DNA of 64,000 nucleotides from the NCBI GenBank assembly GCA_012729785.1, contig JAAYCL010000015.1, forward strand, positions 49,645 to 113,644. Direction: 5' to 3'. The position numbers and the translations under genes are program-made. Numbering within the stretch: the stretch's first letter is position 1; each line of letters starts with the position of its first letter. Shown here piece after piece: positions 18,695 through 28,825 of the stretch. This DNA is from Chlamydiota bacterium. GTDB lineage: Bacteria > Auribacterota > Tritonobacteria > UBA1439. The notes beneath the pieces are model-generated. The model was not told the origin of the DNA and made no database searches. It was given only the letters and a program-made list of their open reading frames with translations.

Positions 18695-19602
18695 AGAAGA
18701 TGCTGATCGCCGCGGCCGTCTCCGCGGCCGCCGTCACCGGCTGCGCAGAGGAGCCGGCGGAGGAGGCGCGGCGTCCGAAAATCCCGTCCCTGCAGGGACG
18801 GCTCGTCTACCAGCGCGGCGAGGGGAACAGGAGCGAGCTGTGGCTGATGGACCTCTCCACGCGCAGGAGCGTCCGACTCACGGACAACGACGTCCTCGAC
18901 GAGTACCCGCGCTGGTCGCCCGACGGGAAGGAGATCGCCTTCTACTCCGACCGCGACGGGACCCGCCGGCTATACCTGATGGACGCCGCGGGGGGCAACG
19001 TCCGCCGCCTGACCGGCGCGCTGCCGGTACAGGAGGATCCGACATGGTCGCCCGACGGGCGGCGGCTCTGCTTCTGGGGGCGGCACGACGCGAAGGGGCC
19101 CGAGAATCTCTACCTGATACGCCGCGACGGGACCGAAATGACGAACCTCACCCGCTCCCGCAAAGGGACGCGCCGCGTGCCCGCCTGGTCGCCGGACGGC
19201 TCCCGGATCGCCTTCACCTCCAACCGCTACCTCAACCACCAGGTCTACCTGATCGGGGCGGACGGCGCGGGGGAGCGGCGCCTGACGGGAAACCCGCGCG
19301 GGGCGTGCCGCCCGCGATGGTCCCCGGACGGGAAGAGGATCGCCTACTCGGACGGCGGCTACGGGGTGCGCAAGAACGTCGACATCTGGGAAATGGACCC
19401 GGACGGCGAACGGAAGATCCGGCTCTCGAAGGGGGAGGGGAACGACTACGACCCCGCCTACGCGCCGGACGGAAGATGGATCATCTTCGCCTCCGACCGG
19501 ACCGGGTGCTACGAACTGTACCTGATGCGGCGCGACGGGAGCGACGAAACGCGCCTGACGGAGTTCGGGGGCTACACCCGGTACCCGGATTGGACGCGGT
19601 GA
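18691..19602 (+). CDS. TolB-like beta-propeller lipoprotein
   Basis: 303-residue lipoprotein: signal peptide with lipobox ending AVTGC (Cys18), then repeated TolB/WD40-like PD40 blades with cores such as PRWSPDGKEIAFYSDRDG, PTWSPDGRRLCFWG, PAWSPDGSRIAFTSNR and PRWSPDGKRIAYSDG. About six blades are visible, enough for one propeller. It lacks the N-terminal TolB domain, so it is a PD40 propeller rather than bona fide TolB. Its start overlaps the rsmA stop. A role in outer-membrane or substrate binding is inferred from the family. Confidence 0.82.
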   Translation: MKKMLIAAAVSAAAVTGCAEEPAEEARRPKIPSLQGRLVYQRGEGNRSELWLMDLSTRRSVRLTDNDVLDEYPRWSPDGKEIAFYSDRDGTRRLYLMDAAGGNVRRLTGALPVQEDPTWSPDGRRLCFWGRHDAKGPENLYLIRRDGTEMTNLTRSRKGTRRVPAWSPDGSRIAFTSNRYLNHQVYLIGADGAGERRLTGNPRGACRPRWSPDGKRIAYSDGGYGVRKNVDIWEMDPDGERKIRLSKGEGNDYDPAYAPDGRWIIFASDRTGCYELYLMRRDGSDETRLTEFGGYTRYPDWTR

Positions 19603-19630: not shown

Positions 19631-20272
19631 TCAGTCCATCGGGGGAGGGTCCCCCTCGGGCGGCGGCTCCTCGTCGGGCGGCGGCGCCTCCGGGGGAGGC
19701 TCCGCGTCGGGCGGCTGGTCGGGCGGCGCGTCGGGGGGGGGCGGCTGGTTCTCCGGCTGCGCGGCGGGCGCCTCCGCGTCCTGTGCGGGGCGGCGCGGCG
19801 GCCTGCGCCGTCTCCGCCTGCGGCGCTGCAACGCCTCCTCCCGCGCCCGCGTCTCCTCCTGGCGCTCCTGCCCGACCGACGGATCTCCGCCGGAAACCGG
19901 GGGCGGCGCGCTCCCGGTCCCCTCGTCCATCACGGTCACCTCGCTCACCACCATCTGCCCGTCGATCTTGCGCGACTTCGCCATATAGCTGCCGAGGAGC
20001 CGGCTCAAAAACTCCTCGTAGGCCGCGTCTCGCAGGTCGAGTGTCGCGGTGGCGCTCTTGCCCGCGAACTTGTTGAAGGTGACGCCGCTTTTTCGCGAGA
20101 ATTCGGAGAGGAGTTGCTCCACCGGCGCCTCGTTGGAGGTCACGGTGATCCGCCCGTTCTCGCAGCGCATCTCGAACCCCCCTGTGGGGACGGGGGTCGC
20201 CGAGGACCGGGGCGGGAGGGCGGCCGCAAGGCACAGCAGCGCGGACAGCAGGGACAACGGCGTAGGTCTCAT
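19631..20272 (-). CDS. Exported protein with STN-like domain and Arg/Pro-rich tail
   Basis: 213-residue exported protein. The signal peptide is residues 1-26. Residues about 35-115 resemble the secretin/TonB short N-terminal (STN) fold (GRITVTSNEAPVEQLLSEF, TATLDLRDAAYEEFLSRLL). The tail has a run of about eight Arg and then a very Pro/Asp/Glu-rich end. In STN proteins the domain lies in the periplasm of outer-membrane receptors or secretins; here no barrel follows. It is 26 bases downstream of the EcfS gene and probably the last gene of the cobalamin-riboswitch operon, so it may help couple outer-membrane and inner-membrane steps; that is inference. Confidence 0.6.
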   Translation of the reverse strand: MRPTPLSLLSALLCLAAALPPRSSATPVPTGGFEMRCENGRITVTSNEAPVEQLLSEFSRKSGVTFNKFAGKSATATLDLRDAAYEEFLSRLLGSYMAKSRKIDGQMVVSEVTVMDEGTGSAPPPVSGGDPSVGQERQEETRAREEALQRRRRRRRRPPRRPAQDAEAPAAQPENQPPPPDAPPDQPPDAEPPPEAPPPDEEPPPEGDPPPMD

Positions 20273-20298
20273 CGCGGCGCAGTTCCAGTGCGGGCAGT

Positions 20299-20910
20299 CT
20301 AGCACCCGAGGCGGGCCAGGGCAAGCCGTTTCTGCGCGTAGCGCAGCGCCCCGATGAGCCCGTTGCCGAGCAGAAGGGCGAAGGCGGCGTTCCCCGCCGC
20401 GTGAACGGCGTCGAACGGGAACGAGGCCGCGTTCACCGCGAGCCACGACCGGAGTGAGAGGGGGTGCACGAACGAGTACCAGTACCAGAAGTTCATTATC
20501 CAGCCGAAGAGGAAGCCCCACGCGGCGGTGAACAGGGCGAGCGCGCCCCGACCCACCCGCGGCGCCGAGACGCCCAGCGCCCCCGCCGTGAGGCCGCACG
20601 CCCCCCACGCGACCATCTGCCAGACGGTCCAGGGGCCGTGCCCGAGGAAGATGTTGGAGACGAGGGCGGCGACCGCGCCGACGAGGAAACCGGCCGCGGG
20701 GCCGAAGACGAAGCCGGAGGCGGCGACGACGAACGTCGCCGGCTGGAGTCCCGGCACGGCGGCGAACGGGAGCCGGCCGAGGGCCGCGAGCGCCGCCAAA
20801 ACGGCGATGAGCGGGATCTCGCGCGAGGAGAGCCGGCCGCGCTCGAAGCGGAGGAACGCCGCCCAGAGGGCCGCAACGGCGACGAGCATGCTGAGGAGGG
20901 CGCGGGTCAT
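20299..20910 (-). CDS. ECF transporter substrate-binding membrane subunit (EcfS), probably for cobalamin
   Basis: 203-residue integral membrane protein with about six helices. The segments SGFVFGPAAGFLVGAVAALV, GPWTVWQMVAWGACGLTAG and WGFLFGWIMNFWYW are typical of ECF-type S components that are encoded next to DUF4430 proteins and regulated by B12. It binds the vitamin and delivers it through EcfT. The start ATG at 20910 overlaps the stop of the ATPase gene. Substrate is inferred from the riboswitch at the head of the operon, not from the sequence of the S component itself, which is poorly conserved in this class. Confidence 0.8.
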   Translation of the reverse strand: MTRALLSMLVAVAALWAAFLRFERGRLSSREIPLIAVLAALAALGRLPFAAVPGLQPATFVVAASGFVFGPAAGFLVGAVAALVSNIFLGHGPWTVWQMVAWGACGLTAGALGVSAPRVGRGALALFTAAWGFLFGWIMNFWYWYSFVHPLSLRSWLAVNAASFPFDAVHAAGNAAFALLLGNGLIGALRYAQKRLALARLGC

Positions 20911-22460
20911 GGGACCGGCGCCTCCGCCGCGGCGCGTTCCGCGAAGCGCCGGAAGAGGCGGCCGGCCAGGGGCGGATCGAACGGGGCCCCGGCGAGGACC
21001 GTGCCGGCCGGCCCCTCCGCGGCGACGACGCCGTCGGAGAGCAGGACGACGCGTCCGGCGCACCCCGCGGCGAAGCCGAGATCCTGTGTCACGAGCAGGA
21101 CCGCCGCGCCGCGCGCCGCCGCGGCTTCGAGCATCGAGGCGAGGCGGCGCTTCAGGAGCGGGTCCTGCCCGCGGGTCGGCTCGTCGAGGAGGAGCAGGGG
21201 CGGACAGGCGGCCATCGCCGCTCCGAGCGCCACGCACTGCCGCTCCCCCGCGGAGAGTTCGCGCGGGTTCCTCCCCGCGAGGCGGGCGAGCCCCCAGGCG
21301 TCGAGCAGGCGCGCCGCGTCGCCGTCTTCGGCGCGGCCGAGGAGGCGCGAGGTGTAGCCGATCTCCTCCTCCACGGTGTCGTGGAAGAGGAAGTCGCCGG
21401 GGTTCTGCGTGAGGTAGCCGCAGGCGGCGGCGCGCTCCCGGTTCCGCATCAGGGCCGGGTCCCCGCCGTCGAGCAGGACCGCGCCGCCCGAGGGGCGGAG
21501 GAGGCCGCAGGCGAGCTTGAGGAGCGTGCTCTTCCCCGCCCCGTTGGGGCCGAGCAGGGCGGTGATCTCCCCGGCGCGCAGCTCAAGACTCACCCGGTCG
21601 AGGACGGGCGGGCCGTCGCGGTAGGCGAACGCGACGCGGTCCAGGCGGAGGATCGGGCGGGGCGGGGGGGGCGTCCCCGGGACGACGCGGCGCGCCCCGC
21701 GCGCGCTCGGCGCGCCGGCCCCGGAGCCGGGCAGATAGTCCGGCGCCGCCTCCGCCGCCCACCGGCGGAACTCCGGCGGCGCGCCGTCGAAACGGGGACG
21801 GCCACGGTCGAAATAGATGACGCGTTCGGCGGCCTCGAGACAGCGCTCGACGCGCTGTTCGACCAGCACGATCGTGCAGCCGAGGTCGCGGCGGAGACGG
21901 GAGAGGAGCGAGAGGAGGTCCTCCGCCGCCGCGGGGTCGAGCTGCGAGGTCGGCTCGTCGAGCACGAGCGTCCGCGCCCCCGCCGCCATCGCCGCCCCGA
22001 GGCAGACCCGCTGCCGCATCCCGCCGGAGAGTTCGTCGACCCGCGCCCCCAGAAGATCCTGGATGCCGAGGCGCTCGGCGATCTCCTCCACGCGCCGGCG
22101 CGCCGCCGCGGGGGGGATCCCGAGGTTCTCCGGCCCGAACGAGAGCTCCCGCTCCACGCGTCTCATCAGCGCCTGCCGCTCGGGATCCTGGAGCACGACG
22201 CCGATCTCCGCGTGGAGGATGCGCCGGTCGATCCGCTCGATCGGCTCGCCGCGGAACAGGAGGCGCCCACCGACCGTTCCGCCGAAGAAGCTCGGCACGA
22301 GGCCGGCGAGGGCGAGGGCGAGCGTCGACTTGCCCCCTCCCGACGGGCCGGTCACGAGCGCGAACCCCCCCTCCTCCAGCGACAGGGAGACCCGGTCCAG
22401 CGCGGGGCGGGGCGCGCCGGGATAGAGGTAGGTGAACCGCTCTGCCAGAAAATGGCTCAC
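20907..22460 (-). CDS. ECF transporter ATPase, two fused ABC domains (EcfA-EcfA')
   Basis: 517-residue cytoplasmic energiser with two ABC cassettes. The first half has Walker A GPSGGGKST, Q-loop VLQDPERQ, signature LSGGMRQRV and Walker B TLVLDEPTSQLDP. The second half, after a Pro/Gly-rich linker, has GPNGAGKST, TQNPGDF, LSAGERQCV and LLLLDEPTRGQDP. Most ECF systems use two separate ATPases; fusion is found in some lineages. Start is GTG 22460, overlapping the EcfT stop (GTGA); sequence upstream in the frame is not ABC-like. Confidence 0.93.
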   Translation of the reverse strand: MSHFLAERFTYLYPGAPRPALDRVSLSLEEGGFALVTGPSGGGKSTLALALAGLVPSFFGGTVGGRLLFRGEPIERIDRRILHAEIGVVLQDPERQALMRRVERELSFGPENLGIPPAAARRRVEEIAERLGIQDLLGARVDELSGGMRQRVCLGAAMAAGARTLVLDEPTSQLDPAAAEDLLSLLSRLRRDLGCTIVLVEQRVERCLEAAERVIYFDRGRPRFDGAPPEFRRWAAEAAPDYLPGSGAGAPSARGARRVVPGTPPPPRPILRLDRVAFAYRDGPPVLDRVSLELRAGEITALLGPNGAGKSTLLKLACGLLRPSGGAVLLDGGDPALMRNRERAAACGYLTQNPGDFLFHDTVEEEIGYTSRLLGRAEDGDAARLLDAWGLARLAGRNPRELSAGERQCVALGAAMAACPPLLLLDEPTRGQDPLLKRRLASMLEAAAARGAAVLLVTQDLGFAAGCAGRVVLLSDGVVAAEGPAGTVLAGAPFDPPLAGRLFRRFAERAAAEAPVP

Positions 22461-23356
22461 CGGGCCGCCCTCCGGGCGAGGGCCACGGCCGCCGCGAGCG
22501 GCGCCGCGGCCGCGAAAAGCCACGGCAGGTCCGCCGCGATGCAGAGCCGGCCGAGGCGCGGGTAGAAGACGAAGGCACCCTTGCCGAGAACGAGGCCGGC
22601 GCCGGTCGCGGCGAGCGAGAGGGCCGCGCCGAAGGCGAGGACCCGGTCGGCCCGTCTCCAGGGCGGCGCGGGGGCGGCGCTGCGCGCGCCGCAGCCGAAG
22701 CCGCGGGTCTGGAGCGCGACGGCGGTGTCCCACGCCCCCTCGAGGGAGGAGACGAGGAGGGCGTGGAGGATCGGGCGGGAGGCGTTGATCCGGGAGAGAA
22801 GGTTCCGGTCGTCCAACGCGGCGCCGCGGACCGCCATCACGCTGCGGATCCTGCCGAGGTCGCGTCGCATCCGGGGGATCGCGAGAAGGGCGAGGGAAAC
22901 CGCGAGCGCCGTCTTCGGCGCGAAGCGGGAACAGAGGGCGAACGCCCCGTCGGCGTCGGCGAGCGTTTCCGCGAGGGAGAAGGCGGCTATCGCGAGGGCG
23001 ATCCTGAGGCCCGAGGAGAGGCCGAAGACGAGCGGCTCGAGGCGGAGCGTGAACGGGAGAAACAAGACGCGCGGCGGGACCAGCACCGTCTCCCCGGACC
23101 GCGTCAGGAGGACGTTGACGAGGGCGAAGAGGACGGCGGAGGGGACGGCGATTGAGAGCGTCTTCCCGCACGCCCGCGGACCGGCGGCCGCGGCGAGGGC
23201 GGCGAGGGCGGCGGCGAGGAGGACCCCGAGCCAGAGGGGGTTGCCCCACGCCGCCGCGGGAAGGAAGACGGCGGCGGCGGCGAGGAGGGCGGCGAGCGGG
23301 TGGAAGCCCGCCGCCGTCCGGCTGCGCACTGCCGGCGGCGCTCCGACCGCGGTCAT
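22457..23356 (-). CDS. ECF transporter transmembrane subunit (EcfT)
   Basis: 299-residue membrane coupling subunit of the ECF transporter. It has N-terminal helices (HPLAALLAAAAVFLPAAAWG), a central part with ASRPILHALLVSSLEGA and the two coupling-helix motifs: AIPRMRRDLGRIRSVMAVRG contains the characteristic Ala-Arg-Gly-type motif and LQTRGFGCGAR is the second. The C-terminal region has two more helices. Start ATG overlaps the stop of the DUF4430 gene; stop overlaps EcfA. Confidence 0.88.
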   Translation of the reverse strand: MTAVGAPPAVRSRTAAGFHPLAALLAAAAVFLPAAAWGNPLWLGVLLAAALAALAAAAGPRACGKTLSIAVPSAVLFALVNVLLTRSGETVLVPPRVLFLPFTLRLEPLVFGLSSGLRIALAIAAFSLAETLADADGAFALCSRFAPKTALAVSLALLAIPRMRRDLGRIRSVMAVRGAALDDRNLLSRINASRPILHALLVSSLEGAWDTAVALQTRGFGCGARSAAPAPPWRRADRVLAFGAALSLAATGAGLVLGKGAFVFYPRLGRLCIAADLPWLFAAAAPLAAAVALARRAAR

Positions 23357-24264
23357 TCGATCACCGGCGCAGGGAGGACGTCGTCCCCCGCGACCACCGC
23401 GGAGGCCATCCCCCGGATCCTTTCCGGGCGTGAGATCAGCACGTCGGCGGCGGCGCAGGCGCGCGCCGTGTCCGTGCCGGTGACGAGCCAGAGCGGCGCG
23501 GGGCGCGTCGCGCCGCCCACGACCGCGACGAGCGCGCCGGCGCCGGGATGGGAGGAGCGCGGCGTCCCGGCGAGGTCGAGGCGGCGCATCCCGGCGGCGC
23601 CGCCATCCACGAACAAGCCCGTGCGGGCGCCGTCGGAGATCGAGCGTTTCACGAGCGGGACGCGCGCGATCCCGTCCCAGGGGCCGATGACAAGCGACGG
23701 GGCGTCGGACGGCGGCTCGGATTCCGCCAGCGGCGCAACGCGCACCCCGGCTGCGCCGCGTCGCGCCAGCGCGGAGACGAGCCCCCTCGCCGCCGCCTCG
23801 GCGCCGGGGCTGAAGAGGACGCGCGGGGGCAGGGAGCCGTCCCGCGCCGCCTGGACGAACGGATGCGGGTAGCCGCCGATGATCGCCCGGACCTGCCGCA
23901 CCCCGTCCCACAGGTGGAGATCCCACTGGAGCATGTCGCCCGGTTCGGGGATGCAGGACGCCGCCCCCCGCTCCGCCAGAATCCCGTTCAGGTAGTAGAA
24001 CCACGCCTGCCCGGCGTCCCGCGCCCCCTTGGCCGGCAGGCCGTTGATCCGCGACACGAAGGCGCCGCCGAACGCGGTCTCCACCTGCGCGCACTCCTCG
24101 AGGAGGCGGAGGGCCGAACGCCCGCGCGCGGGAACGGACCGCTCGGCGAGGGGCGGCGAGGAGAAGTTGCGGCAGACGAGGACGGCGACCTCGGCCCCGC
24201 CTGCGGGGGGCGGAGCGGAGGCGGCGAGGGCCGCCGCGGCAACCATCCCGAGTATCGGATGCAT
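23353..24264 (-). CDS. DUF4430 (transcobalamin C-terminal-like) exported protein
   Basis: 303-residue exported protein. Signal peptide at residues 1-24. The first half has the DUF4430 pattern: VLVCRNF, a Leu/Glu-rich helix (LRLLEECAQV), AWFYYLNGILAERGAASC and PGDMLQWDLHLW. This fold is known from the C-terminal beta domain of transcobalamin and intrinsic factor. The second half (about 130-303) is an alpha/beta domain I do not recognise, with VLFSPGAEAAARGLVSALA, LVIGPWDG and repeated AALVAVVGG-type strands, perhaps a second ligand domain. It lies between the surface protein and EcfT in the cobalamin-riboswitch operon, so corrinoid binding at the membrane surface is a strong inference. Confidence 0.82.
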   Translation of the reverse strand: MHPILGMVAAAALAASAPPPAGGAEVAVLVCRNFSSPPLAERSVPARGRSALRLLEECAQVETAFGGAFVSRINGLPAKGARDAGQAWFYYLNGILAERGAASCIPEPGDMLQWDLHLWDGVRQVRAIIGGYPHPFVQAARDGSLPPRVLFSPGAEAAARGLVSALARRGAAGVRVAPLAESEPPSDAPSLVIGPWDGIARVPLVKRSISDGARTGLFVDGGAAGMRRLDLAGTPRSSHPGAGALVAVVGGATRPAPLWLVTGTDTARACAAADVLISRPERIRGMASAVVAGDDVLPAPVIE

Positions 24265-24290
24265 CCGGTCCCCCCGCGCCGCATCGGTCC

Positions 24291-26774
24291 CTAGTAGTGC
24301 ACGGCGCACACCGCGTCCAGGTCGAATCCCGACGACCCGGCGCCGGAGCACGACCCCAGATCGGTCACGTGCCGCACGCGATCGCCGTTCCGGTCGACGA
24401 GCCAGCCGTCGCCCGTGGCGGTGATGCGGACGAAGCGCACCCAGTCGAGGTTGAGCGCGTCGAGGTCGAAGGCGTCTCCGCCGGCCGCGGGCGTGCGCGG
24501 GTCGGGGGAGCCGCCGCTGCTGTACGTCGGGGAGACGCCCGCGAAGCCGCGCGACGAGCCGTCGGCGTCGAGGTAGCAGTACGGATTGTAGAGGTTGAGT
24601 TCCCCGGTGTCCGTGTAGTGCGGGACGAAGTCGAAGGGGAAGGTGTGAAACAGCGCCCCGTCTTTGCTCACGGAGACCACCGCGGGCTCGATCCAGCGCC
24701 GCCGGGGGTCGCCCCCGGCGAAGAAGGCGTTCTCGAAGACGATGAAATCGGGGCCGGGGCCGTTCACGACGAGGTTGTCGGTGAACTCGAGCGTGATGCT
24801 GCCCCCGTACGGCGCCGACGCCCCGTTGTCGGTGTTGGCCCTGGCGTGCAGGGAGACGACGTGGGTCGACCCCATCGCCGCCCCCGCCCCGCGCGGGGCG
24901 CCGAGCGCCCACGAGAGGGACGACGAACCGTAGCCGCCCGGCGAGAGCGGATTGAACGAGACGACCCTGTCGGCGAACGGGTCGGCGGGGCCCGCGAGCG
25001 TCACCTCGCGCGGGACCGCGACCGCCCTCGCCTCGTCGGGGATGACGCCCGCGACGCCCGAGGCGGTGTAGGGGAGGGCGGCGTAGTGGCAGGCGGCGTC
25101 GTTGACGAGGCCGGTGTCGAGGAACTCCGTCCCGGCGCCGCGGTAGACGATGACGCCGTCCTCGGGGCTGGACGGGGGGGAGGCGGGGGAGCGGAGGATG
25201 ACGGTGAACGAGAAGTCGGGGTGCGCGGGATTGGTCCAGGCGAGGGCGACCTTCCGGTCGCTGGGCGCGGCGGAGAGGCCGGAGACGGAGAGGAGGGCGG
25301 GTTCGGAGACACGGATCGCCAGGTTCCTCTCCGCCTGCTCCGCCGCGGCGTCGGCGACGGCCGCCGTGAACGGGTAGTCGCCCGCGGTCGCCGCGACGGT
25401 GCCGCGGATGCGGCCCGAGGCGGCGTCGAGCGAGAGGCCCGAGGGGAGCCCGCCGCGCGGGAGCGACCATCGGTACGGCGGGGTCCCCCCTTCCGCATCG
25501 AGAGACGCCTCGTACGCCGCGTCGCGGGTCGCGTCCGGGAGATTGGAGGTGACGACGGTGAGCGCGTCGGCGTAGACGAGGAGTTCGAGCTCCGCGGCCG
25601 CCTCCTGCCCCTGCGCGTCGGTTACGCGCGCCGTGACGAGCAGATCGGCGGGCTCCCCGGGCGTGCCGCCGATGACGCCGCGCGCGGGGTCGATCCTGAG
25701 GCCGGCCGGGAGGGCGCCCGGATGGATCCGCCATTCGTAGGGGGGGGTCCCGCCGGAGGCCTCCAGCGTCTGCTCGTACGGCGCGCCGACGAGCCCCTCC
25801 GCCAGCGTTTCGGTCAGGATGAGGAGCTCCACCCCGCGGACGGTGAGGGCGTACTCGGCGACGTCGGCGTTCGAGCCGGCGTCCGAGACCATCGCCCTGA
25901 ACACCCACCGGCCCCCGGCGGACGGGACCCCGCCGACGAGGCCGCTCGCCGGCTCCAGCGAGAGCGCGTCGGGAAGGGCGCCGGCGACGATCGACCAGGC
26001 GTAGGGCGGGGTCCCGCCGGTCGCCTCCAGTTTCGCCGCGTACCCCTCCTTCGCGACCGCCTCGGGGAGCGCCCCGGTCGTGATGTAGAGCGGCTCGGTG
26101 ATCTTGCCCTGCGGGCGCTCGTACGCGATCCCCCCGCCGTCCGTGACGGCGAGGACGTAGACCGACTCCGCCCGCCTCCCCGCCGCGTCGACGACAGCGA
26201 GACCGACCTGGGCGGTCTCCGCGGTCCGCGCCGTCCCGCGCAGCATCCCGTGCGTCCCGTCGAGCTCGATCCCGGCGGGCAGGGCCCCCGAGGAGAGGCG
26301 CCAGGCGTACGGGAGCGTGCCCCCCTCCGCGAAGAGCGGAACGTAGTACGCGGTCCCGGTCACCGCGGGCGGCAGCGCCGCGGTCGTGATCCGCAAGGCC
26401 GCTTCGGGCTCCGGCGCCGCCCCGGCCTCCGCGGAGGGGCGCGCCGCAGCAGCCGGTGAGGCGGCGGGCGCCTCTTCGCCCTCCCCGCCGCCGTCGCGCG
26501 CGCGCGCGGAGGGGGGGACGGGAGTCGATTCACGAGAAGGCGCGGGGGAGGGCTCCGGCTCGGAGGCCTCGGGCGTGGAGTCACCGGCGCCGAAAAAGCG
26601 GGTGACGACGGTTGCGGGGTACAGGAGGCGCCTGAACGGGCGCGGCGCCCCGGCGCCGTTCCGTGCCGCCGGGGGGGCGGAGGCGCGGCGGTCGAGCGCC
26701 CGGGAGGCGGCGAACAGGGCCGCCCATACGAACAGTACAGCCGAGGCGAGGAGCGCGATCCTTGACGGTTTCAT
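24291..26774 (-). CDS. Large surface protein with four putative-Ig domains, first gene of B12 riboswitch operon
   Basis: 827-residue exported or membrane-anchored protein. A hydrophobic helix (residues 6-26) acts as signal or anchor, then a Pro/Ser/Glu-rich linker to about 125. Four He_PIG-type Ig repeats follow (about 126-208, 226-312, 313-402, 403-490), each with core GGTPPYxWxxxxGALPxGLxLD and a GTP/GTV turn. A fibronectin-like part has KVALAWTNPAHPDFSFTVI. The last 250 residues are a separate domain with SWALGAPRGAGAA, PGPDFIVFENAFFAG, PAVVSVSKDGALFHTF and DGDGWLVDRNGDR-like turns, resembling surface-protein domains found with B12 uptake genes elsewhere. Known B12 riboswitch operons can start with a capture protein, so I propose this role. 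I do not recognise any enzyme motif. Confidence 0.72.
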   Translation of the reverse strand: MKPSRIALLASAVLFVWAALFAASRALDRRASAPPAARNGAGAPRPFRRLLYPATVVTRFFGAGDSTPEASEPEPSPAPSRESTPVPPSARARDGGGEGEEAPAASPAAAARPSAEAGAAPEPEAALRITTAALPPAVTGTAYYVPLFAEGGTLPYAWRLSSGALPAGIELDGTHGMLRGTARTAETAQVGLAVVDAAGRRAESVYVLAVTDGGGIAYERPQGKITEPLYITTGALPEAVAKEGYAAKLEATGGTPPYAWSIVAGALPDALSLEPASGLVGGVPSAGGRWVFRAMVSDAGSNADVAEYALTVRGVELLILTETLAEGLVGAPYEQTLEASGGTPPYEWRIHPGALPAGLRIDPARGVIGGTPGEPADLLVTARVTDAQGQEAAAELELLVYADALTVVTSNLPDATRDAAYEASLDAEGGTPPYRWSLPRGGLPSGLSLDAASGRIRGTVAATAGDYPFTAAVADAAAEQAERNLAIRVSEPALLSVSGLSAAPSDRKVALAWTNPAHPDFSFTVILRSPASPPSSPEDGVIVYRGAGTEFLDTGLVNDAACHYAALPYTASGVAGVIPDEARAVAVPREVTLAGPADPFADRVVSFNPLSPGGYGSSSLSWALGAPRGAGAAMGSTHVVSLHARANTDNGASAPYGGSITLEFTDNLVVNGPGPDFIVFENAFFAGGDPRRRWIEPAVVSVSKDGALFHTFPFDFVPHYTDTGELNLYNPYCYLDADGSSRGFAGVSPTYSSGGSPDPRTPAAGGDAFDLDALNLDWVRFVRITATGDGWLVDRNGDRVRHVTDLGSCSGAGSSGFDLDAVCAVHY

Positions 26775-26819
26775 TCAATGCATCAATGCGGTGCGCGTAT
26801 CCTCCCCGGGAGGCGGGCG

Positions 26820-26850
26820 AAAAAAAAAGCCCTCCGCGTGAGCGAAGGGC
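26820..26850 (-). terminator. Riboswitch-controlled intrinsic terminator
   Basis: On the minus strand CCCTTCGC, loop TCAC, GCGGAGGG forms an 8-bp stem with one G-U pair, followed by C and nine Ts. It stands between the cobalamin riboswitch and the start of the surface-protein gene, the expected position of an expression platform. Confidence 0.88.
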
Positions 26851-26889
26851 TGCAGAATCGGCCGATCAGCTTCTCTCACCCCGGAGAAT

Positions 26890-27085
26890 ACAGCGACGCG
26901 AGGTTTCCTGGCTCGCGGCAATGCGTCCCTTTCCGGCCTTCCCGGCACGGCGGCCTCGGCGGCCGCTTGCACCAGTGACCGGAGGGCGTGTCCCTTCGCC
27001 GCTTACAGTTGCGGGGGCAGCAGCGGATTCTCACCGCTTTCCCTCTCCGTGCCAAAGAACCGGTGCAATGGTACGCCAGGAGCGT
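26890..27085 (-). ncRNA. Cobalamin riboswitch
   Basis: The minus-strand leader has the conserved blocks of the B12 riboswitch in the right order: GAGGGAAAGCGGTGAGAATC, then GCTGCCCCCGCAACTGTAAG, then GGTCACTGG, then GGGAAGGCCGG and finally the B12 box GCGAGCCAGGAAACCTCGC at 26898-26915. The class is AdoCbl or cobalamin; I did not assign a subclass. When cobalamin binds, the downstream terminator would form and shut off the surface-protein and ECF operon. The ends are approximate. Confidence 0.95.
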
Positions 27086-27157
27086 GCGGGGGTCAACAGG
27101 GGATTTCGCCGGATTTGTCGGGCCTGCCCTGCGTGCCGGGCGTGTCGCACGGCATTT

Positions 27158-27186
27158 TTTACATTCCGGTTGCATTGTGGTGACAA
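27158..27186 (-). promoter_or_regulatory. Promoter of the cobalamin riboswitch operon
   Basis: On the minus strand TTGTCA (27186-27181) and TGTAAA (27163-27158) are 17 bases apart, about 70 bases before the riboswitch core. It is the only good sigma70-type pair between the riboswitch and the divergent propeller gene. Confidence 0.55.
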
Positions 27187-27268: not shown

Positions 27269-28825
27269 ATGCAACTCTTCATCCGAGGTGCGATGATCGC
27301 GGCGGTATGGGCGGCGGGGACGTCCTGTTTTGCGCAAGTGGACCCGTGGCCGATGTTCCGCTGCAATCCCGCGCGCACCGGCGCGAGCCAACTGCACGGA
27401 TGCGCGACGGTGGCGCTCTCCTGGTCGTACGCCACGGGGCACACCATCGAGTCGTCCCCGGTCGTCGGCTCGGACGGGACCGCCTATTACGGCTCCTATG
27501 ACAATCGGATCTACGCGATGTCGTCTTCCGGGACCCTGGCCTGGAGCTACGACGCGGGGAACTTCGTCTCCACCTCCCCGGCCTTCGACGGAGACGCCGG
27601 GCGCGTCTACGTCGCCTCGTATGTCGGTCGCCTGTTCGCCTGCACCCTCGGCGGGGCGCTGGAGTGGAGCTACGAGACCGGGGGCCTCATCGCGCGATCG
27701 TCGCCCGCCGTCGATTCCGGCGGATGCATCTATCTGGGTTCGGCGGACAACCGCCTCCACGTGCTCTCGCCCGCGGGGGTGCTCGCCTGGAGTTATGAAA
27801 CCGCCGGCGACGTCCATTCGTCGCCCTCCATGGAGGGGGAGCGCGTATTCGTAGGATCCAAGGACGGGAGGCTCTACGCCCTCGGCGCGGACGGCGCGTT
27901 CGCCTGGAGTTACGATACTGGGAAAACCATCGGCGAGTCGTCCCCGGCGGTGGGGACGGACGGGACGGTCTACGTGGGGGAGATAGACCCTGGAAAAACC
28001 CCGGTCCCGTGCAATCTCTACGCATTCAACTCGTCGGGCGGTCTCGCCTGGAGTTACGCGACGGGGGACGACGTCAGTTCCTCGCCCGCGATCGGGGCGG
28101 AGGGGATCGTCGCGGCGTCGGGAGACGGCAACGTCTATCTGTTCAACACGGACGGGACATTCAGGTGGAGCTACGTCACGGGCGGGTACGTGCATTCGTC
28201 GCCGGCCGTCGACGAGGACGGGATGATCTTCGTCGGATCCTTCGATGGGGGGGTGTACGCGCTGGACAGCATCGGAACGCTCGCCTGGAGCTATCGCACG
28301 GCGGGGCCCGTACTATCGTCCCCCTCCATCGGCCTAGGCGGAACAGTCCAGATCGGCTCGTTCGACAGCGTGTGCTACTGCTTCGGCGCGGCGTCCGCAT
28401 CGACCCCGACCCCGACGCCCGAGCTCACACCGACGCCGGAACCGACAGAGACGCAGCCACCGCTCGACCTGAAGGTGAACAGCACGAGTCCCTCCGCGGG
28501 CGACGAATTCACGGCGGAGGTGTCGGTACAGCCCCTGGAAGAGACGTTCGACGCGTACGGGGTGGTGCTCGGTGCGGGAGGGGCGTGGTCGTTCGACCTC
28601 GCGAACCCGGGGGCGCTCGTTTCGGGCGTGCGGCCCCTTGTCCGGTCGGTCCCCGGCCTGACCGAGGTCTGGGGGGGGACGCTTTTCCATATGGATTCGA
28701 TACCGGACTATCTGCGGGGAGCCGGGTTTACGTTCATCGCCGGGCTCGTCCCCGCGGGGGCGCCGCCGGCGGTGGAATACGCGATCCCGGGCTTCGTGGA
28801 TCAGGAACAGGTGGAGATCAGGTAG
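27269..28825 (+). CDS. Exported PQQ-like beta-propeller protein
   Basis: 518-residue exported protein. A signal peptide (residues 1-22) is followed by about nine blades with the repeated core WSYxTGxxxxSSPxV, DGTxYxGSxDxxxYAL. This is the PQQ-binding-like or BamB-type propeller, here without cofactor motifs. Residues 375-400 are a Thr/Pro-rich linker and the last 120 residues form a beta-rich domain resembling cohesin or Ig-like carbohydrate-associated modules (LKVNSTSPSAGDEFTAEV). It lies divergent from the cobalamin operon and has a GGAAGGAGGAGG ribosome site. A surface or envelope role is likely; ligand unknown. Confidence 0.78.
   Translation: MQLFIRGAMIAAVWAAGTSCFAQVDPWPMFRCNPARTGASQLHGCATVALSWSYATGHTIESSPVVGSDGTAYYGSYDNRIYAMSSSGTLAWSYDAGNFVSTSPAFDGDAGRVYVASYVGRLFACTLGGALEWSYETGGLIARSSPAVDSGGCIYLGSADNRLHVLSPAGVLAWSYETAGDVHSSPSMEGERVFVGSKDGRLYALGADGAFAWSYDTGKTIGESSPAVGTDGTVYVGEIDPGKTPVPCNLYAFNSSGGLAWSYATGDDVSSSPAIGAEGIVAASGDGNVYLFNTDGTFRWSYVTGGYVHSSPAVDEDGMIFVGSFDGGVYALDSIGTLAWSYRTAGPVLSSPSIGLGGTVQIGSFDSVCYCFGAASASTPTPTPELTPTPEPTETQPPLDLKVNSTSPSAGDEFTAEVSVQPLEETFDAYGVVLGAGGAWSFDLANPGALVSGVRPLVRSVPGLTEVWGGTLFHMDSIPDYLRGAGFTFIAGLVPAGAPPAVEYAIPGFVDQEQVEIR

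Follow-up and report, generated by a model that had tools for sequence, protein, structure and literature searches.

A cobalamin riboswitch-controlled operon with a BtuH-like exported protein and a CbrT-type ECF importer, a predicted B12 scavenging system of an Auribacterota relative

Operon layout and riboswitch

We analyzed a 64,000-nucleotide stretch (the window) of contig C15 from a 2.59-Mb metagenome-assembled genome, 96.6% complete, of kin of Candidatus Auribacterota, and focused on a minus-strand operon that consists of a cobalamin riboswitch, a terminator and six closely packed genes and that very probably serves the import of B12. This architecture, proposed in a first-pass annotation made from the DNA letters, was confirmed by Rfam, a terminator scan and gene calls. 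Four of the five gene-gene junctions had been counted as tight; the tight packing stood, but the count did not, as each of the five is either an overlap of 4 bases or a gap of 26 bases. The features of the operon, including its energy-coupling factor (ECF) transporter genes, are as follows.

27068..27096 (-), sigma-70-like promoter TTGACC-17-TACCAT (consensus scan, 9/12 match, sequence match only)
26884..27073 (-), cobalamin riboswitch aptamer (Rfam RF00174, 84.7 bits, E 2e-19)
26828..26851 (-), intrinsic terminator AGCCCTTCGC-TCAC-GCGGAGGGCT followed by T8 (fold with a 10-pair stem and a 4-base loop)
24291..26774 (-), exported He_PIG/Ig protein of 827 amino acids (Pfam He_PIG in four stretches, E 1.9e-41)
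24294..25016 (-), C-terminal BtuH-like (H) domain of this protein, residues 587-827 (AlphaFold2 model, VIA, profile search)
23353..24264 (-), exported DUF4430 protein (PF14478, E 1.3e-9)
22457..23356 (-), EcfT transmembrane coupling subunit (PF02361 CbiQ, E 6.6e-7, slightly shorter frame)
20907..22460 (-), fused double ECF ATPase (PF00005 in two stretches, E 4.6e-56)
20299..20910 (-), EcfS, CbrT-like predicted B12 S component (phmmer to 6fnp_A, E 1.2e-12)
19631..20272 (-), exported STN-like protein, the last gene (homologues)

The Rfam score of the aptamer exceeds the gathering score of RF00174 (31.5 bits), and a home-made covariance model gave 96 bits. The position of the transcription start is uncertain, since the -10 element of the promoter and the beginning of the Rfam match share some bases. 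The terminator lies between the aptamer and the first gene. An aptamer followed by a terminator is the layout of an OFF switch, and this placement is consistent with termination induced by B12, a direction of regulation that is predicted from the arrangement of the elements.

The gene order of the operon was also found in the relatives G004 (L098), G005 (L002/L099) and G006 (L100); G005 belongs to the same family as the window genome, and its contig ends inside EcfS. An equivalent order was present in G003 (L003/L097), but without the DUF4430 gene.

C-terminal domain of the exported Ig protein

The protein encoded by the first gene is composed of an N-terminal hydrophobic helix, a Pro/Ala/Glu-rich linker, four He_PIG domains and a C-terminal region of ~240 residues. 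This last region (residues 587-827) matches no Pfam family, and when the exported protein alone was used for sequence searches of Pfam and the PDB, the region was left without a match; the domain was recognised solely with a 60-sequence profile and a structure model. Searched against the PDB, the profile retrieved the H domain of BtuG1 (8blw_B) with an E-value of 3.2e-5. The AlphaFold2 model of the domain reached a mean predicted local distance difference test score (pLDDT) of 92.6 and a predicted TM score of 0.91, and the best VIA matches to this model were BtuH2 (7biz; Z 13.7, root-mean-square deviation 3.5 over 171 residues) and BtuG1 (8blw; Z 13.1), followed by PAPP-A as the next protein (Z 10.4) and by CBM32/discoidin folds (Z ~8). 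With Foldseek, a BtuG1 chain was the sole match below 0.001. A search through a single Bacteroidetes relative (L074) provided no bridge to 7BIZ.

Two residues of the 7BIZ chain, Asn299 and Phe301, coincide in a sequence alignment with the VFENxF motif of the H domain. If the BtuH2 numbering runs 100 ahead of that of 7BIZ, as inferred from the construct and the fit of residue types, they are equivalent to the BtuH2 residues Asn399 and Phe401, whose contacts are to the phosphate and the lower ligand of B12 (PMC8941943). Their counterparts in the window protein are Asn682 and Phe684, each conserved in 97% of ~60 members. In its modeled fold and, as mapped here, in some of the key residues, the C-terminal domain is thus closest to the B12-binding domain of BtuH2 and BtuG1, and it is predicted to bind B12. 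The exported protein, which the first-pass annotation had regarded as undescribed, can be placed with these proteins by the same features. An identity with DUF4465 (BtuJ) was considered as well and rejected, as none of the 60 H-domain members matched DUF4465 at E-values up to 0.1.

Linkage of H domains to cobalamin riboswitches

A collection with one genome per species (84,980 species) was searched with the C-terminal ~240 residues alone. The 76 H-domain loci obtained come from Myxococcota and other deltaproteobacterial lineages, Acidobacteria, Planctomycetota, Bacteroidetes, CSSED10-310 and others. A covariance model detected a same-strand cobalamin riboswitch upstream of the domain in 56 of them, at distances from 192 bases to 5.9 kb (median 1.1 kb); among the 76 loci, riboswitches were also located on the other strand (four) and downstream of the domain (one), and 9 of the 20 loci scored as negative have less than 2.5 kb of upstream sequence. 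The covariance model (R1) was built from 18 riboswitch cores, which match it by construction and for which the scores are optimistic, and it is mostly a sequence model, because RNAalifold kept just 14 pairs of the core. A plain motif search performed before the model was built had found the riboswitch in 44 loci, and RF00174 was present in 8 of the first 13 loci checked with Rfam. The loci were picked by the protein domain only, which makes their linkage to B12 an independent one. In 30 of the 76 loci a gene for a BtuB-like receptor lies on the same strand, and 27 of these also have the riboswitch; by manual count, the order is riboswitch-H-BtuB in 16 loci and riboswitch-BtuB-H in 11.

ECF module, DUF4430 protein and STN-like protein

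The best PDB match of EcfS in phmmer was 6fnp_A, a chain of ECF-CbrT, with the next one, 4hzu_S, at an E-value of 0.0017. ECF-CbrT is a proven transporter of B12 and cobinamide that supports cobalamin- and cobinamide-dependent growth (PMC5997447). By homology, EcfS is a CbrT-type S component in preference to the other solved S components, and transport of B12 is predicted. The possibility that it resembles the S component of another vitamin had been raised at the outset, and the closest solved relative proved to be CbrT. The riboflavin component suggested by the Pfam name was not adopted, as we judged this name too broad. EcfT and the fused double ATPase complete a dedicated ECF module together with EcfS; the best NCBIfam model for the ATPase was TIGR04521 (ECF_ATPase_2, 6.7e-77), under the cut-off of that model. 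CbiM gave only an E-value of 0.056 in the Pfam scan.

The DUF4430 protein scored 38.8 bits with PF14478, for which the cut-off is 23.8 bits, and it is present in 4 of the 44 genomes of our phylum sample. A model built from four sequences had an overall pLDDT of 69.8. In VIA, its residues 1-107 aligned to the beta domains of transcobalamin and haptocorrin (2v3n, 4kki and 5np4; Z 6.4-7.2), among them an isolated beta domain bound to cyanocobalamin (5np4, Z 6.8), and the C-terminal half, an alpha/beta structure, resembled BcsB and glucuronidase N-terminal domains (Z 9-12). The N-terminal half thus resembles the transcobalamin beta domain, in agreement with the first-pass annotation, in a region of low model confidence. 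The further proposal that the four-Ig protein replaces the helical barrel domain was not supported, because it is the C-terminal domain that resembles a B12 binder, the Ig repeats are the counterparts of the Ig spacers of BtuH2, and G003 has an equivalent operon without DUF4430.

The product of the last gene is exported and has a long proline-rich acidic tail. Its STN label is weak: a homologue in L003 matches PF07660 (STN) with an E-value of 1.6e-4, under the curated cut-off. The operon ends with this gene in three genera, including those of G003 and G004. By eye, a gene for a PD40/TolB-like propeller protein (18800-19602, plus strand) is convergent with the end of the operon.

B12-related genes elsewhere in the genome

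The genome contains four cobalamin riboswitches, all of which precede genes for exported-looking proteins: the one in the window, two on C13 (L082:343-4810) and one on C16 (L083:8450-9811). On C13, one riboswitch precedes a second H-domain gene, which lies between the two riboswitches, and the other precedes two beta-propeller genes; the riboswitch on C16 precedes a propeller gene. The three riboswitch-controlled propeller proteins are related to each other and could be BtuG-like. When the C13 and C16 propellers were tested for kinship to BtuG with a four-sequence profile, BtuG was not recovered, and the matches were generic propellers (designed Pizza, NHL repeats). A divergent gene for a PQQ/BamB-type beta-propeller adjoins the riboswitch of the window (27269-28825, plus strand), and its C-terminal part resembles, by eye, these riboswitch-controlled propellers.

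Neither CbiC nor CobS was found in the genome; this and the other gene absences reported here are stated for an assembly that is 96.6% complete. Since the genome nevertheless encodes 23 B12-binding domains, import of a finished cobamide is to be expected, and the bacterium appears unable to make B12. No BtuBFCD import set was found at the locus: the operon has no receptor gene, and the genome has a single, marginal match to FecCD permeases (E 1e-6). C35 (L105:4150-13400) carries a TonB receptor gene together with TonB, ExbB/ExbD-like and XdhC-like genes, a second fused ECF ATPase, an EcfT-like protein and a small S-like membrane protein without a Pfam match. The best solved relatives of this receptor are BtuB proteins, with matches mostly over the plug and not specific.

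Location of the Ig protein

The first-pass annotation had described the Ig protein as a surface protein, a placement that the analysis did not support. Its N-terminus is a hydrophobic helix (19-residue mean hydropathy >2), and a simple pattern detected no lipobox. The protein could be cleaved and secreted, or it could be anchored in the inner membrane; surface placement is therefore unproven. Somewhat short of an even chance is, in our estimate, that the helix holds the protein in the inner membrane, where it would act as a periplasmic partner presenting the substrate to the ECF module instead of BtuF, with entry through the outer membrane by another porter. This alternative concerns only the location and shares the interpretation as B12 import. 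In its favor, the G003 and G004 proteins likewise have the N-terminal helix and no lipobox, whereas the same simple pattern found a lipobox in 27 of the 84 H-domain proteins examined; moreover, the operon encodes an inner-membrane transporter and no receptor, and FecCD is represented by one marginal match. It is opposed by the G006 protein, which has an ordinary cleavable-looking signal peptide, by locus L104 of a relative from another family, in which the gene follows that of a BtuB-like receptor, and by the Bacteroides BtuH proteins, which are surface-exposed (PMC10404256).

Proposed function and alternatives

In our interpretation, which we hold with good though not full confidence, the operon encodes a system by which a B12-auxotrophic bacterium scavenges and imports B12 (cobamide). 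The first-pass annotation had arrived at a B12 import machine, and this is upheld by the riboswitch score above the threshold, the relationship of EcfS to CbrT, the beta-domain-like DUF4430 protein, the conservation of the gene order in relatives and the genome without CbiC and CobS. At low B12, the riboswitch would allow readthrough of the terminator. By its C-terminal BtuH-like domain, the exported Ig protein would capture a cobamide, with the Ig repeats acting as a spacer, and the cobamide would be handed over, either directly or via the transcobalamin-beta-like DUF4430 protein, to the CbrT-like S component, to be imported by the dedicated EcfT/double-ATPase module. The STN-like protein may have a part in this chain, and crossing of the outer membrane, by whatever route, is presumed.

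Several observations weigh against this interpretation. B12 binding and B12-responsive expression are, at present, computational predictions. The H-domain profile reached BtuH2 at a mere E-value of 0.26, the significant sequence match being the BtuG1 domain, and just two BtuH2 contacts could be mapped, through an inferred residue offset, with Gln333, His476, Tyr510, Trp511, Trp577 and Leu578 unaligned. The DUF4430 part of the model is poor, with pLDDT values mostly of 38-65. No BtuB is encoded in the operon, and the sole TonB receptor of the genome, on C35, is not preceded by a riboswitch. Finally, the broad riboflavin ECF model of Pfam also matches EcfS (1e-9), and the riboflavin and folate models of NCBIfam do so weakly.

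The Pfam names of EcfS, 'riboflavin', and of EcfT, 'cobalt transport', could indicate that the substrate of the ECF module is cobalt or a vitamin other than B12 and that the riboswitch acts indirectly. We consider this very improbable, as CbrT leads by a wide margin among the solved relatives of EcfS, CbiM reaches just the score given above, and the genome has no CbiC, which corrin synthesis from cobalt requires. Equally little credit can be given to the view that the C-terminal domain, an adhesin domain of an ordinary carbohydrate-binding or discoidin type, just happens to lie in a B12 operon. CBM32/discoidin folds do occur among the VIA matches, and the related Leptospira lipoprotein LIC_13355 has been studied for binding activities other than B12 (PMC11891782), but BtuH2 and BtuG1 clearly outscore all other matches, the riboswitch linkage extends over 56 of 76 loci across phyla, and near-invariant residues occupy the positions to which two B12 contacts were mapped. 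A less remote, though still unlikely, arrangement is that the H domain and DUF4430 jointly clamp one B12, like the two domains of transcobalamin. The adjacency and co-regulation of the two genes and the resemblance of DUF4430 to the transcobalamin beta half would agree with such a clamp; the equivalent operon of G003, which has no DUF4430 gene, and the picomolar affinity of BtuH2 alone for B12 (PMC10404256) argue against it.

Beyond the import of B12 by this operon, we tentatively put forward a wider proposal, for which the chances are well below even: that a two-membrane bacterium operates a B12 chain without BtuB or BtuFCD, in which an exported BtuH-type protein and a free-standing transcobalamin-beta-like protein feed a dedicated CbrT-type ECF importer, and that the BtuH-like domain is a general cobamide-capture module of many phyla, including the LIC_13355 lipoproteins of Leptospira.

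Comparison with known systems

BtuH was described from gut Bacteroidetes as a B12-binding protein, with a binding domain without known structural homologues and with a few homologues in Firmicutes. The candidate capture domain is known in kind from Bacteroides; new here are its breadth across phyla and its occurrence together with DUF4430 and a CbrT-type ECF module. The BtuH-like fold is now seen in cobalamin-riboswitch loci of Myxococcota, Acidobacteria, Planctomycetota, Bacteroidetes, CSSED10-310 and Auribacterota. If the domain binds B12, the use of dedicated B12 capture proteins would be widespread, and a testable function could be assigned to many exported proteins that now lack annotation.

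The window protein shares with BtuH2 of Bacteroides thetaiotaomicron (7BIZ) and the BtuG1 H domain (8BLW) the modeled fold, two B12-contact residues as mapped above and the location in cobalamin-riboswitch loci. The overall layout is also common, as in BtuH2, too, the B12-binding domain comes after Ig-like PKD domains (PMC8941943), and the Ig repeats of the window protein correspond to these spacers. However, the H domain is only 18-23% identical to BtuH2 and BtuG1 over the structural alignment and has no Pfam model, the protein has four He_PIG domains instead of the three PKD domains of BtuH2 and lacks a lipobox, and the genes next to its own encode an ECF importer and not BtuB/BtuFCD. The domain is likewise common to the LIC_13355 family lipoproteins of Leptospira (NCBIfam NF033170): all 60 aligned members match this model (best E 5e-20), whereas the window protein scores under the family cut-off. 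A predicted cobamide-binding role is thereby suggested for these lipoproteins.

Compared with transcobalamin and haptocorrin, the DUF4430 protein has the beta domain in common, but it lacks the alpha6-alpha6 barrel and carries instead a C-terminal alpha/beta part like those of BcsB and GH67/GH115 enzymes. No paper turned up in a literature text search that combined BtuH with 'ECF transporter', and the combination of a BtuH-like domain, a transcobalamin-beta-like domain and a CbrT-type importer in one operon was not reported in the literature found. The nearest precedent is a discussion remark on a BtuH homologue of the Firmicute Eubacterium siraeum, whose gene lies near an ECF-like cobamide transporter (PMC8941943); DUF4430 is not reported there. 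With ECF-CbrT of Lactobacillus delbrueckii (PDB 6FNP), the system shares a homologous S component, EcfT and two ATPase domains. In contrast to ECF-CbrT, the ATPases are fused here, the genome has a TonB receptor, and EcfS is encoded with its own ECF module and with exported candidate capture proteins under a cobalamin riboswitch.

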